Shown one piece after another: positions 28,494 to 40,520 of a stretch of DNA of 64,000 bases. This DNA is from Roridomyces roridus (taxonomy: Eukaryota > Basidiomycota > Agaricomycetes > Agaricales > Mycenaceae): assembly GCA_029378245.1 (NCBI GenBank), contig JARKIF010000107.1, positions 49,987 to 113,986 on the forward strand, in the 5' to 3' direction. The position numbers and the translations under genes were made by a program. How positions within the stretch are numbered: position 1 is the first letter of the stretch; every line of letters begins with the position of its first letter. The notes beneath the pieces were generated by a model. That model did not search any database, was not told the DNA's origin, and saw only the letters and a list, made by a program, of their open reading frames with translations.

Positions 28494-28581
28494 TGGCATC
28501 ACCGTGGATTGAACACGGGACCTCCAGATTTCGAAAGGATGTTACTTCAGTCTGTTGCTCTCCCAGCTGAGCTATGACGCC
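28494..28581 (-). tRNA. tRNA-Phe (anticodon GAA) with a 15-nt intron
   Basis: Read on the minus strand: acceptor GGCGTCA pairs with TGATGCC, D arm GCTC-AGCTGGGA-GAGC, anticodon arm ACAGA-CTGAAG with the intron TAACATCCTTTCGAA directly after G37 as in canonical nuclear tRNA-Phe genes, then ATCTGG, and T arm CCGTG-TTCAATC-CACGG. Mature length is 73 nt before CCA addition. The T loop has TTCAATC instead of TTCGAATC, still acceptable. Discriminator A. No obvious T-run terminator within the next 15 nt was checked in detail. Confidence 0.88.
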
Positions 28582-28845: not shown

Positions 28846-28970
28846 TGGCATCACCGTGGATTGAACACCGTGGATTGAACACCGTGGATTGAACACGGGA
28901 CCTCCAAATTATCCAAATACGATACCACCTATACTTCAGTCTGTTGTTCTCCCAGCTGAGCTATGACGCC
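28846..28970 (-). pseudogene. tRNA-Phe copy with triplicated T arm, probably dead
   Basis: Same acceptor (GGCGTCA/TGATGCC), D arm slightly altered (GAGAAC for GAGAGC), anticodon loop CTGAAG, intron about 25 nt, 3' anticodon stem TTTGG for TCTGG. The segment TTCAATCCACGGTG is present three times in tandem where one T arm belongs. The extra 28 nt cannot fit a normal cloverleaf unless one T arm is used and the rest loops out. Confidence 0.8.
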
Positions 28971-29166: not shown

Positions 29167-30225
29167 AACACTCCACAAAGCCCGGGTAATGGATTTCACG
29201 GCACATGGTCGGACCCAGCGATTGGGAAGTTCATGCGCTGCGAAAGAGTTTCATCAAGTCTGACTGAAATACGAGGTAAGGACAGCCAACTCACTTCCTG
29301 TCGAGCAACGAATCACGATTCAAACTGTTTGACAAGGGAACGATTGGCAAGAGCTTACAATCTGTTTTAAGGTGAATACCAGAGTTCGGAAGTTGCGAGA
29401 CTGCAAAACGCTGACCTCCTGTCGAAAGAGCGTTGTTGACTGGTTTGTCGGACAAGAAAGGTTGAATATCACTGACATGCTAGGCAGTGGAAGTTGAGAG
29501 TAGAAAAGCTGTCGATGTGTTGATACTCACTGGCTGTTCGAATGAAATACATCAAAGGATGTGCGAGCGTTCAATTGAAAACAGGACTCACGAACTGTTG
29601 GAAAGGCAGATTGAATTCAAGTCGCGGGTTGGATGTAGCTTGGCAAGCAGCTCACCATCTGTGGAACAACCAATTCGAATGGTATCCGGGCATGTTGTTG
29701 CAGAGACTCACCCGCTGCGAATGTCGCTCCTCAGTCCAGTTGCGACATCCCAGAACCGCGTGCAACTCACCTCCTGCAAATAGATCCAGTAAGCCACTGT
29801 ATTCACATCGCTGGAGAAAGGAAGGACACGCACCAACTAGCAGAACAAACTGGGTCGGCCAAAAACATCACATTCGACAGAACGACGCACCGCCTTACCA
29901 TAACTGGTCAATGATTGGCGCATGATGGATGATACTACATACAGGCGTTTGCAAGAAGAACTCCGACTGATCAAGCAGATTTTGCATCCCATTACTCACC
30001 AGCTGGCGGAAGAAAAAGTGAGTATTTGCGTCGACGTGCGCAGAGGTCAACACTTACCAGCTGTTTAAAGGGACTCGGAACTACAAACACTAATTGTACG
30101 GGTGCAACTCACCTCCTGGTTGAAAAGGCAATCCAATTAGTCAACGCGATAAACCATGAAATCCAACACTTCCCTCCTGTCAAAAAACATCGAGCGCATA
30201 CAGTAGAAACGACTCGGAACGTACG
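29167..30225 (-). other. Array of 3-nt micro-exons separated by introns of about 50-60 nt
   Basis: On the minus strand, AG acceptors are followed after exactly 3 nt by GT donors again and again. Micro-exon positions (plus coordinates) and codons in 5' to 3' order: 30174-30176 GAG, 30113-30115 GAG, 30058-30060 CTG, 30000-30002 CTG, 29834-29836 TTG, 29771-29773 GAG, 29712-29714 CGG, 29656-29658 ATG, 29592-29594 TTC, 29531-29533 CCA, 29477-29479 CAT, 29416-29418 GAG, 29359-29361 ATT, 29295-29297 GAA, then a normal exon 29237-29167. Donors are GTGAGT, GTAAGT, GTGAGC, GTCAGT, GTAAGC, GTCAGC and GTGCGT; only the first (GGAAGT) is abnormal. A 163-nt interval (29837-29999) is ambiguous and contains a possible 5-nt exon TTATG. 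Intron bodies do not look like copies of one another. If the ambiguous interval is one intron, an open frame runs from ATG near 30240 (MVQIVHEELL) through the chain to a TGA in the terminal exon (GSDHVP). Confidence 0.6.
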
Positions 30226-30270
30226 TGGACAATTTGCACCATACGAAAGGTTTCTGTTACTTCGTGATGC

Positions 30271-31635
30271 CTAAAATTCACGTCCAGTTGAATCTGAGTC
30301 TGGATTGACGATCACGCACGTCTGTAGCTCAGCAACTTCTTCAAACCCAGGCGTGTCCGGCTCAGAGGCAGCCGCTTCAACCAATATCCAAGGCACAGAA
30401 GAGAGCTGATATCGCGCTCCGCACGTTCTTTCAGTACTGTTCAAATGGGCAAGAGTTCAATCAATAATCCCAATTTGAAGTGCGTAGACCATGCGTACCA
30501 TTCAACCCAACTATCCTCCTTGGCCTCTGCGCTAGTTCTGCTGCACTCAGGGCACATCTGCCTTGGCGTTCGAGGACGCACGGTCCGCTTGATGATGCTA
30601 ATGTGGATTTGCGTCGACGGGCTCACCCTGCCACAGACTTTGGGATATGGAATAACGTCGCCGTCGGCAGAGACGATACTGTAGTCCCCTCGGTCGATGT
30701 AACTTCTTCCTGCCTCTGGGGAGTTGAACAGGTAGGCCTGCAAAATGCGGTGAAGATCCTGTCTCAAAGTCAGTCGAGTCCTTATCATGTAGGTTACTTG
30801 AACCGTGAACGTACTTCAAATGTGGTCAAATAGGCCAGTGGAACTGGTATGGAGCGTCCAATCGGATCTACAACGCAAAAGACGGGGTCCCGTATATCGT
30901 GGAGTGACATCTGGGCAAATAGCTGTTGGACGGCGGTGCCCAGTTGGCGTATCTCAGCCATTGCGTCGCGGATCTCACCGCCACGCTGGGAGACTTGCGC
31001 GGACAAAAATGAGGATATGACACTGTCACAACGCTGAGCGTAGAACTACAGGGAAGAAGACATCACCGACGCTTCGACAGAGTTGACCCTTGACCCGATA
31101 TACTGCACCTGGGAGCCCACTCGTCCAAGCTGTTCTCCCACCTCGTGCAATTTGATACTAGGAAAAGTGAGATTACCGTGAAAAACCCCGCGGATAAGAC
31201 ACCGAACCTGTTGGATGAAGACAAAAGTTCACGGAGCACAGCACGCCGCTCCGATATTTGCGCTTTCCACGCTGTTATCTCCTTTTCCTCCATCGCGGCC
31301 ATCCACGACTTGCGAAGAAACCCACCAAAACCTGCAGCTGCGGCTTCGTATGACTTGATTTTGGCGGCGAAATCAGCGAGAAGTGAGCGACAGAGCTCGA
31401 CTTCGGCCCAGAGCCTATCCGTGAAGTGCCCTTGCCCGAAAACGAGCGTGAGCTTGCTCATATCTTCGCACAGTCCCTCCAGAGCCGCGACGAGCTGGTG
31501 ACGGCGGTGTGAGCTTCCTGCAGTCTTTCGAAGAGTGTCGATGATGCGTTTAGCGATTCTGGCCGCTTCCAAGATGTCTCCGAAGGACCCAAAGGTGAGG
31601 GCGACACCGACGACGAATGGAGAGGCCAGTGGCAT
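30271..31635 (-). CDS. ULD-type ubiquitin-like domain protein with helical N-terminus
   Basis: The first exon encodes MPLASPFVVGVALTFGSFGD followed by long helices (IAKRIIDTLRKTAG, LVAALEGLCEDMSKL, WAEVELCRSLLADF). After an intron come HEVGEQLGRVGSQVQYIGSR and SAQVSQRGGEIRDAMAEIRQ, coiled-coil-like. The ubiquitin-like fold follows: DPVFCVVDPIGRSIPVPLAY, an intron (GTACGT...GACAG), DLHRILQAYLFNSPEAG, DYSIVSADGD, IHISIIKRTV. A C-x2-C (MCPECSRT) sits near the end. The last splice joins SWVE to CTERTCGARYQ and the frame stops at TAG 30271-30273. Exact second intron is uncertain. The family is common in mushroom fungi; function is not established. The micro-exon array starts about 45 bp beyond the stop on the same strand. 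Confidence 0.75.
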
Positions 31636-37619: not shown

Positions 37620-40520
37620 CAAACTCTTTTCTGCAACATGTCTATGTCCTCGAGCACTTGATCGCCCCGTGCTTCCCTGCTATCGGCTTCTTCCTGGCCG
37701 TCAAATCCCCATTCGTTCATTATATGCATCCACGTCTTCGAGTGCAGGATTGCTTTCTTCCTCTGCTATCAAAAGTGTTGAATTCTTCTGGGCATTGAGT
37801 TCCCGTTCGTTCGTTATACGCATCCACGCCCTCGAGCACGGGATTGCTTTCTTCCTCCGCTATCAAAAGTGTTGAGCTCTTCTGGGCATCGAGTTCCCAC
37901 TCATTTATATGTCTATGCCATCGAGCGCTGGATCCTGCGCAATCATTCTGGGCTTTGAGTTCCCACTCTTTCGTGCATCCATGCCCTCGAGTGCTGGATT
38001 GCTTTCTTCCTCCATTATTGGAAGTGTTGACTTTCGGGCATCGAGTTCCCATCCTTGCCCTCGAGCGCTGGATCATATTTCTTCCTCCGCTATTGAAAGT
38101 GTTGAGTTCTTCTGGGCATCGAGCTCATATTCATCCATGCATCTATACCGTCGAGCGCTGGCTAACTTTCTCCCTGCACTACCGAACACGTCAACTCTTT
38201 GTTATTCTTGGCCATTGGGTTTCCATCGGCAACATACGTCCACGGCCCCAAGAACAACTGACAGTCTGGGTTACAACTTTGGCTTCTACGGAACGGTTCT
38301 GAGTTCTGACTACAATCATCGGCATTCAAGTCTAGCTTATGTCTTACTTTGCCCTCTTTACCCGAACCATGCAAGACGACTACGACCCCCTTACTGATTC
38401 GCAGCATTTACCTTCACACCCTCGTCTGAGGCGGCCTCTTCGACTATAACACAACGGACGAATATAGGCCTATTCTCTTTGCACTCACGTGAACTCCACA
38501 TTTCGGCGCATCAACGGCGAGTTTACTCTGTTCCTCCGCTGTTAAATTTGAAGCTCTGTTTCTCCGCTATTGAAGCTCTGTTGCTCTGTCATCGAAGTTC
38601 TGTTTCTCCGCTATCGAAGCTCTGTTGCTCTGTCATCGAAGGCCTGTTCCTCTGCTATGGAAGCTCCGTTTGTCTGCTGTCGAAACTTGGTTCTTCTGCT
38701 ATCGAAGGCATTGAGCATCATCCTCCTTAACCTACAAGCACCCTTTTACAGTACGCATCTATGTCCTCCGGCGCCGAATGGCCCTGTATATATGTCTGCT
38801 CTCAAAAGCGACGGGCTTGTTCCTCTGCTCTCAAAAACATCGAATTTTTATCCTTCCTAGGCCATCGAGCGCCCCTTCAGAGTACGCATCCCTGCACCCA
38901 GCCGCTGGGTAGCTCTGTCTGCTATCGAAAGCGGCGAACTTGCTCCTCCCTTCGTCGTCTAATAGGTGCCTTGTATCTTGTCATCGAAGACGAGCTTTGC
39001 CATCGACGGCATTTGGTTTCAACATCATCATCGCAGGGACTCTTTGCCATCGTTGACGGCGTCCCAGCTGTATCCTCAATTACTGGAATTCCTGTTTCTG
39101 GCCATCGAAGGCATTGACACCCATATCCTTGAATACTCGAGTTGGTCAGGCTCGTCATCGCGGACGCTCCGCCATCGAAGGCATTCCGTTTCCGTTTTCA
39201 TATCCTCAAGCGCTGGTTGGCTTGATTACATTGATGTACCTGAGCGCTGGTACTGGTATCCCTTCACTCCAGGTCGTTTTATCCTTCCTAGGCCATCGAG
39301 CGCCCCTTCAGAGTACGCATCCCTGCACCCAGCCGCTGGGTAGCTCTGTCTGCTATCGAAAGCGGCGAACTTGCTCCTCCCTTCGTCGTCTAATAGGTGC
39401 CTTGTATCTTGTCATCGAAGACGAGCTTTGCCATCGACGGCATTTGGTTTCAACATCATCATCGCAGGGACTCTTTGCCATCGTTGACGGCGTCCCAGCT
39501 GTATCCTCAATTACTGGAATTCCTGTTTCTGGCCATCGAAGGCATTGACACCCATATCCTTGAATACTCGAGTTGGTCAGGCTCGTCATCGCGGACGCTC
39601 CGCCATCGAAGGCATTCCGTTTCCGTTTTCATATCCTCAAGCGCTGGTTGGCTTGATTACATTGATGTACCTGAGCGCTGGTACTGGTATCCCTTCACTC
39701 CAGGTCGTCGGAATATTTTGAAGTTGATATGTAAGTGCACTATCTATCTTGTCGGGATCCTTCCAACTTGTACCTGCGGGCCGTACTCATCCATGTACAA
39801 CTGCCTGTATCGTGGGCATACTTTACTGGTCTTACGCTATCGAGAGCGTCCCTTTTACGACTTTTGTCTGCTGTTATCACAATGGTGCTTGTCTTGAGCT
39901 ATCGAGAGCACCATTTTCGCCGCCATCGAGAGCATGCATTCATTCCAGTATCAATGACTTCCACCGTGATTAAACAACCTGCATGCATTCACTCTGCTAT
40001 CAAAGCAACGACTTCCGCCACGGTCCAAAGTGTGCCTGGATGCAGCACATCAGCCTCCAGGTCCCATGCCATGCGAAAAATTCGCCTTGGCTGCTATCGA
40101 AAGCACGTCTTCTCATACGCTATGAAGAATGTCTTCGTTTGTCGCTATCGAGAACGCGCCTTGTTCTTATGCTAATGAGCATAGGTTGCTATCGAGAGCG
40201 CACTTATCGAGAGCACACTTGTTTTCTTGCGCCATGGTTGGCATATCACCATCGGAGCTTGGATATCTTACTCTATTGAACGCAGCCGTGGTTTGCATCT
40301 ATTCAAAGTGCACCTGTCCTGCGCTGTTGGGATTGACTTGGCGCTGTCAGTGCATACCTCGCCGCTATAAAAAGTGTGCATACCGTCAAAGGCATCTTTC
40401 CTGCCGCTATCAAAGTTTTCTTGTCCTGCACTACTGCAAGCATTATTGGTCTACTGGCAACTAGGAGCTGTTTTACCCGATCAATAGTATTCCTTTGTCT
40501 GCTGCTATCGAAAGCGCATC
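37620..40520. repeat. Region with dispersed GCTATCGAAAGC-like motifs
   Basis: About twenty occurrences of a 12-nt near-palindrome (GCTATCGAAAGC, GCTATCGAGAGC, GCTATTGAAAGTG, GCCATCGAGAGC) at irregular spacing of roughly 20-100 bp. Between 37725 and 38200 they sit in a degenerate 70-90 bp unit that also has CATCGAGTTCCCA and GAGCGCTGGAT. Between 38555 and 38715 they form a short array of about 22-24 bp units (GAAGCTCTGTTGCTC). Open frames on plus are by-products. No rDNA or telomere resemblance. Confidence 0.65.
38846..39707. repeat. Perfect-looking tandem duplication, 431-bp unit
   Basis: Copies 38846-39276 and 39277-39707. They give identical translations over more than 100 codons, so divergence is essentially nil. 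Either very recent or an assembly artefact. It lies within the GCTATCGAAAGC region. Confidence 0.9.

Follow-up and report, generated by a model that had tools for sequence, protein, structure and literature searches.

A predicted array of one-codon exons at the 3' end of a Roridomyces roridus ULD_2 gene

The ULD gene and its 3' end

The window analysed here is a stretch of 64,000 nucleotides from Roridomyces roridus (GenBank assembly GCA_029378245.1, contig JARKIF010000107.1, positions 49,987 to 113,986). It contains, on the minus strand, the ULD gene FB45DRAFT_523951 (public model P0001), and behind the apparent stop of this gene lies a run of predicted exons that are each exactly one codon long. 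The DNA sequence predicts that this run forms the 3' end of the ULD_2 gene of the mushroom, in which sixteen consecutive codons would each make up an exon between short phase-0 introns; the probability of this reading is put at about 0.8. The original prediction had instead described a gene of its own, starting MVQIVH after the ULD stop, while raising the possibility of splicing to the ULD gene. Only the suggestion agrees with the gene structure. The apparent stop (TAG) sits within a 49-nt phase-2 intron (30319-30271, GTGCGT...TTTTAG) and does not close the gene upstream of the array. After removal of this intron the ULD frame runs on as THHEVTETFRMVQIVH, passes through the one-codon exons, and ends with RMNFPIAGSDHVP and a stop at 29196. 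From exon 6 to this stop the genomic sequence covers 1075 nt, of which 136 nt would be left after complete splicing. Because the intron both removes the stop and joins the two parts in frame, the array is best read as the end of the ULD gene. P0001 makes the same join, and a separate micro-exon gene from the ATG at 30242 was accordingly ruled out.

The predicted protein and P0001 are identical over 383 residues, including the first micro-exon, once the second intron of the public model is adopted; a 27-nt intron after exon 2 in the first gene model was dropped in favour of the 48-nt intron annotated there. Beyond the first micro-exon, P0001 continues into the next intron and ends EGSVGFHGLSR. 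In a Pfam scan of the predicted protein, ULD_2 (PF22893) is the sole family above its cut-off (E 1.3e-10; 41.8 bits versus 24.5). The structure model of P0001, which is without the spliced tail, contains an N-terminal helical bundle (mean predicted local distance difference test score, pLDDT, 61; residues 343-393 below 50), and a Foldseek search with it returned nothing at E <0.001. A further copy of the locus is found on C480 (the window lies on C10) and is probably allelic, with two differences in 9701 bases (32413 and 33146), both outside the gene, so that it gives no information on conservation. A plus-strand gene across the array was also considered and rejected: the region has five stop-to-stop open reading frames, with no Pfam match above the cut-off. 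Rfam gives two matches in the window, none of them within the array. Downstream of the coding region, a GTAAGT at 29167 may mark the start of an intron in the 3' untranslated region. The features of the gene are collected in Table 1.

Table 1. Coding exons of the ULD gene and the predicted one-codon exons of its 3' end, in the order of transcription
Feature	Position in window	Strand	Basis
ULD coding exon 1, N-terminal helical region	31208..31635	minus	identical to P0001
ULD coding exon 2, followed by a 48-nt intron	31071..31157	minus	intron adopted from public model
ULD coding exon 3	30815..31022	minus	own model and P0001
ULD coding exon 4, most of ULD_2; first CxxC of a zinc-ribbon-like motif (by eye)	30499..30758	minus	own model, Pfam
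ULD coding exon 5; unspliced reading reaches the TAG formerly taken as the ULD stop	30320..30436	minus	
49-nt phase-2 intron, GTGCGT...TTTTAG; phase-2 intron at the matching place in the paralog	30271..30319	minus	own model and P0001
Exon 6, encoding HHEVTETFRMVQIVH; family motif F-R-L-V-Q-I-x-Y/H, here FRMVQIVH	30225..30270	minus	
One-codon exon GAG (E), donor GGAAGT	30174..30176	minus	
One-codon exon GAG (E)	30113..30115	minus	
One-codon exon CTG (L)	30058..30060	minus	
One-codon exon CTG (L)	30000..30002	minus	
Putative one-codon exon CCT (P), ACG acceptor; TGG in the paralog	29943..29945	minus	
Putative one-codon exon GCG (A), AAG acceptor, GTGCGT donor; ACT in the paralog	29891..29893	minus	
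One-codon exon TTG (L)	29834..29836	minus	
One-codon exon GAG (E), residue identical in the paralog	29771..29773	minus	
One-codon exon CGG (R), residue identical in the paralog	29712..29714	minus	
One-codon exon ATG (M)	29656..29658	minus	
One-codon exon TTC (F)	29592..29594	minus	
One-codon exon CCA (P)	29531..29533	minus	
One-codon exon CAT (H)	29477..29479	minus	
One-codon exon GAG (E)	29416..29418	minus	
One-codon exon ATT (I)	29359..29361	minus	
One-codon exon GAA (E)	29295..29297	minus	
Last coding exon, RMNFPIAGSDHVP and stop TGA	29196..29237	minus	

Number of exons and departure from chance

Fourteen codons, each behind an AG acceptor and before a donor, had been reported earlier. All of them were located on the minus strand, from 30176 to 29295, and 13 of the 14 units combine an AG acceptor, 3 nt and a GT donor. 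The same report had left an interval of 163 nt between CTG (30000) and TTG (29836) as ambiguous. In a scan limited to exons of at most 12 nt and introns of 36-75 nt, CCT plus GCG, separated and flanked by introns of 54, 49 and 54 nt, is the sole two-exon parse of this interval that keeps the frame. The acceptor of the CCT exon, however, reads ACG rather than AG, and GCG alone behind a 106-nt intron would also keep the frame. Sixteen exons are counted here because a paralog of the gene, described below, has two one-codon exons at the matching place; the fourteen codons thus stand, and the interval probably holds two more. With the interval split in this way, the array introns measure 48-61 nt.

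Well-formed sites were sought for every exon length from 0 to 24 nt, both in the array region (1029 nt) and in the remaining window on both strands. At length 3 there are 12 such sites in the array region and six in the rest of the window; at every other length the array region has none or one. In 1000 dinucleotide shuffles of the array region, the number of 3-nt sites averaged 0.17 and never exceeded 3, and the longest strict chain was 1, against 7 in the real sequence. Chains of three or more units, sought at the sixteen lengths 0-15 in the window and five further stretches of the genome, occur at length 3 only, and only in the array, its allele and the paralog, while 60 shuffles of the whole window gave none. 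A consensus pattern of two units has eight matches in the 90.8-Mb genome (501 contigs), all at the array locus and its allelic copy, and the reversed control has no match; the pattern undercounts, since it is too strict and overlooks the paralog array. A chance run of splice-like words, which the original prediction had already held very unlikely, therefore has a negligible probability, given the shuffles and the recurrence of the array in a second gene.

After the micro-exons, the donors approach GTRAGT unusually closely. An A occupies position +4 in 25 of the 29 micro-exon donors of the window gene and paralog (with a GG donor counted), but in only one of 12 donors elsewhere in these genes (Fisher 4.6e-6), or in 4/18 once six P450 donors, chosen by eye, are included. 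The donor table, like the list of introns used for branch points, contains the earlier 27-nt version of ULD intron 2, which lies outside the array and whose donor is without +4 A in either version. Across the window array, 32 of the 34 GT or AG dinucleotides are intact.

A paralog with an array in the same register

A search of the R. roridus genome with the ULD exon identified a second ULD gene on C79, with 51% protein identity over 94% of the query. Its exon 6 is likewise preceded by a phase-2 intron and ends FRMIQVVY. It is followed by eleven 3-nt exons (GAG, CGG, TTT, TTT, TGG, ACT, ACT, GAG, CGA, CAA, ATT) and then by two 6-nt exons (CAACAA and TGGAAA). All 14 introns of this array are GT-AG (28/28 dinucleotides). 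The AG-NNN-GT spacing, whose absence from homologous sequence in relatives the original prediction had named as grounds for rejecting it, is thus present in a paralog and in the same register. Of the 11 codons that were aligned, three encode the same residue in both genes (E1, E8 and R9). The similarity over all 11 exceeds that of BLOSUM permutations (p = 0.011), and none of the other eight offsets scores as well as register 0. A splicing-based regulatory RNA, one of the roles first suggested, finds no support in this pattern, as the codon register is common to both genes.

The introns themselves have diverged. At 12 matching positions, the similarity of intron bodies between window gene and paralog is at the level of shuffled sequences (p = 0.27). 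Within the window, the introns score a mean of 11.5 versus 11.2 after shuffling (p = 0.075 for all pairs, 0.62 for adjacent ones), without any conspicuous pair, in agreement with the earlier impression that their bodies are unrelated. Across both arrays, by contrast with the intron bodies, 60 of 62 splice dinucleotides are intact. That these sites and the register persist while the intron bodies look saturated suggests that the sites are used, and this persistence is the strongest argument from DNA for their use.

The tails differ little in codon number, with 16 in the window gene and 15 in the paralog, where two codon boundaries are without an intron. The 6-nt exons suggest that introns come and go with hardly any change in the number of codons, which favours gain or loss of introns over multiplication of whole units. 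The public model of the paralog matches the gene model built here for 389 residues and leaves the spliced path after the first micro-exon. Two more ULD copies lie in tandem on C79 (692977 and 695365; L031 1472-5250) and are apparently incomplete, being interrupted by other sequence. The second of them seems to keep a motif exon, which reads AFRLVQFIY and is followed by GTAAGA. A scan over lengths 0-15 gave no chain of at least three micro-exons at either copy.

ULD_2 relatives in other species

The comparison with other species was made on protein models. Two database searches gave 73 distinct ULD_2 proteins including that of the window gene, 55 in the first and 18 added by the second. The motif F-R-L-V-Q-I-x-Y/H near the C-terminal end of Mycena members, a criterion devised in this analysis, is carried by the window gene and by 31 of the 55 proteins of the first search (two of the 55 are from R. 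roridus). Directly after the motif, 14 of these 31 have a V (GTN). Five others have one residue followed by VS or AS: the R. roridus paralog and proteins of Mycena pura, M. rebaudengoi, M. venus and M. amicta. In the paralog, the public model reads the first micro-exon and then enters a GTAAGT intron. These readings count indirectly in favour of the array. Among the 18 added proteins, one fits the motif pattern, with no V after it. None of the family models inspected in the databases was seen to contain a spliced tail.

Some Mycena ULD proteins (P0042, P0056, P0043) are annotated with sequence past the motif region, including SH3 domains (P0043, M. venus). The C-terminal end of the family may be a place of domain exchange.

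How the array may be spliced

It is very probable, from the sites and register kept in two genes, that the run is coding, spliced and part of the ULD gene family. The 17 introns of the window array would be removed by the ordinary spliceosome acting on short introns (intron definition). As the other introns of both genes are 46-62 nt long, the array introns appear ordinary in size and are probably recognised across the intron. Removal would probably be successive, from 5' to 3', so that each splice extends the upstream exon and the 3-nt size ceases to matter. Strong GTRAGT-like donors could compensate for the missing normal exon context. With one codon between two phase-0 introns as the unit, skipping any exon would drop one residue and keep the frame. 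Such frame-neutral skipping would confer tolerance to errors, would fit exon lengths that are only multiples of three, and would make the two broken sites of the window copy tolerable.

By analogy with the NACHT-ankyrin receptors of truffles, the same arrangement could give rise to many alternative C-terminal tails. Tail variation as the selected function of the array is a tentative proposal, and somewhat doubtful. A bolder extension is speculative and rather unlikely as a whole: mushrooms, independently of the truffles, would have evolved codon-by-codon splicing as a means of diversifying protein tails, with sixteen skippable codons giving up to 65,536 in-frame tails on a ULD protein whose N-terminal bundle is possibly cell-death-like, and the system would lie hidden across the genus Mycena, in tails that the annotated ULD models fail to read.

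Several observations weigh against the predicted spliced array. Two sites of its array are broken: micro-exon 1 (GAG, 30176-30174) is followed by GGAAGT, a non-GT donor, and micro-exon 5 is preceded by CG instead of AG. Either these two codons, if not more, may be left out during splicing, or the tail of the window copy may be in the course of being lost. Branch-point motifs give no clear signal either way: CTRAY occurs in one of 17 window introns (2.1 in shuffles) and in two of 14 paralog introns (2.0 in shuffles), and YTNAY is found in 12 of 14 introns of the paralog (p = 0.024), but only 8 of 17 window introns have it (p = 0.95). The nucleotide identity of the aligned codons (13/33, p = 0.11) is not significant on its own. 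Intron similarity pooled over all positions is slightly raised between the genes (mean 11.46 versus 11.15 for letter shuffles, p = 0.010) and also within the paralog (p = 0.015), in neither case with an outstanding pair. For the tail itself, helical amphipathicity is borderline (p = 0.026 in the window gene, 0.068 in the paralog), and a protein database search gave no protein containing it, the only match being P0001 at E 1.4. Among the relatives, 10 of the 31 motif-bearing proteins read otherwise after the motif and two end there, while 24 of the 55 are without the motif.

Alternative explanations

The strongest alternative, only a little short of even odds, accepts that the array is spliced and coding but takes it to be constitutive and functionless as an array, its introns having piled up at the codon boundaries of a dispensable tail in which mis-splicing is nearly harmless. 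The nearly constant number of codons (16 and 15) alongside a differing number of introns would reflect gain and loss of introns within a fixed tail, and both the lack of clear similarity between units and the two broken sites of the window copy fit this account. Against it stand the retention of 60/62 dinucleotides between diverged introns and donors that are stronger than elsewhere in the genes; both indicate that splicing is under selection, but not that variation is. A loss confined to the window copy, with its protein ending EGSVGFHGLSR in the intron after micro-exon 1 and only the paralog still using the array, is unlikely. The GG in place of GT after micro-exon 1, the CG in place of AG before micro-exon 5 and the end chosen in P0001 all agree with such a loss; however, 32/34 splice dinucleotides of this array are still GT or AG, and either broken site could be passed by an in-frame skip of one codon. 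Moreover, the public model of the paralog also enters an intron although every site of its array is GT-AG, so that the ends of both public models look like a failure of annotation.

An introner-like or tandem-unit origin, in which an intron, or an intron with its codon, was multiplied and always left 3 nt, had been raised in the original prediction and is improbable. It would account for the constant 3-nt step, for identical neighbouring codons (GAG GAG and CTG CTG in the window gene, TTT TTT and ACT ACT in the paralog) and for the weak pooled similarity of introns noted above within the paralog and between the genes. Yet the window introns are not significantly alike, whether all pairs or adjacent pairs are compared, and the array is without the near-identical intron copies by which introners are recognised. 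In a genome search that skipped very common words the array region matched only itself and its allele, and in the paralog the 6-nt exons uncouple the number of introns from that of codons. More improbable still is recursive splicing, in which 30224-29238 would be one long intron taken out in pieces and the 3-nt exons would not be kept in the mRNA. The regular pairing of acceptor and donor across these 987 nt resembles a series of ratchet points. At ratchet points, however, acceptor and donor directly abut, and the array regions contain no site of length 0. None of the 3-nt units starts with GT, and a unit that has been joined would therefore offer no new donor. The shortness of the other introns in both genes and the shared codon register with the paralog likewise disagree with a single long intron.

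Comparison with known systems

Taken as the predicted spliced end of the ULD gene, the array has a close precedent in truffle receptors, although these belong to another protein family and another phylum: the truffle genus Tuber is an ascomycete, R. roridus a basidiomycete. As described in papers that cite the original report, the nank (NACHT-ankyrin) family of Tuber melanosporum has many 3-bp exons that are alternatively spliced and are said to diversify the C-terminal recognition domain (Iotti et al., 2012; cited in PMC4986451, PMC9815663, PMC10197012). To the extent of these descriptions, both systems have multiple 3-bp exons at the C-terminal coding end, with 16 in the window gene (14 plus the putative two) and 11 in its paralog. 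The proteins differ, as the Pfam scan gives no NACHT domain in the window protein, and ankyrin repeats occur neither in that protein nor among the listed 25 of the 29 families recorded for the 41 relatives, out of 55, that were scanned. Alternative splicing, moreover, is reported for the truffle genes in the citing papers, whereas the R. roridus array is predicted from the DNA sequence.

A run of 3-nt exons in a basidiomycete was not found in the parts available of the literature searched, which lay mostly outside subscription journals and included PMC3584928, PMC8831610, PMC10526429, PMC11121469, PMC9142197, PMC1184071, PMC9815663, PMC3990503, PMC10197012 and PMC4986451. The abstract of one of these states that functional microexons were previously undescribed in filamentous fungi (PMC11121469), which conflicts with the truffle report. 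In the literature covered, basidiomycete microexons are described down to 6 bp in Phanerochaete P450 genes and 5 bp in yeast bglA, with up to 10 microexons under 30 bp in one gene. These genes resemble the array in placing small exons next to short introns, but no run of 3-nt exons is described for them in the passages covered. The exons of the micro-exon genes (MEGs) of Schistosoma, given as 6-81 bp (3-81 bp in the abstract) and mostly multiples of three, with introns of 100 to almost 5000 bp (PMC10526429), are similarly short and frame-keeping. The R. roridus exons differ from those so described in being uniformly 3 nt long, in having introns of 48-61 nt and in occupying the 3' end only, exons 1-5 being 87-428 nt. 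That spliceosomes use exons of a few nt is indicated by the 1-nt exon of APC11 (PMC8831610), and RPS24 is cited as a further example of microexon use. In the plant and animal cases covered, microexons stand singly or two or three together, as opposed to sixteen codon-sized exons in a row here.

Sixteen successive one-codon exons would constitute an extreme test of spliceosomal exon definition. An exon of 3 nt is only as long as the exon part that pairs with U1. Two paralogs with a shared register and dissimilar introns make the question of exon definition testable. Should single codons prove to be variably included, the array would join the NOD-like receptors of truffles as the second example in fungi of protein tails diversified combinatorially, in another phylum and another protein family. 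Annotation of the ULD family may also stop short at this point, as both R. roridus models leave the spliced path after the first micro-exon.

Other features of the window

Close to the array, the minus strand carries a tRNA-like sequence at 28852-28970, which resembles the Rfam tRNA at 28494-28581 and whose 3' part contains 3.2 copies of a 14-bp unit; neither of the two is called by ARAGORN in bacterial mode. A perfect tandem duplication of 431 bp occupies 38846-39708, where the C480 copy apparently has one unit. Finally, about 11.9 kb on C10 (10146-22005), within related repeats, are absent from the C480 copy (junction at L010 5273/5274), a difference that is an insertion or deletion between haplotypes.
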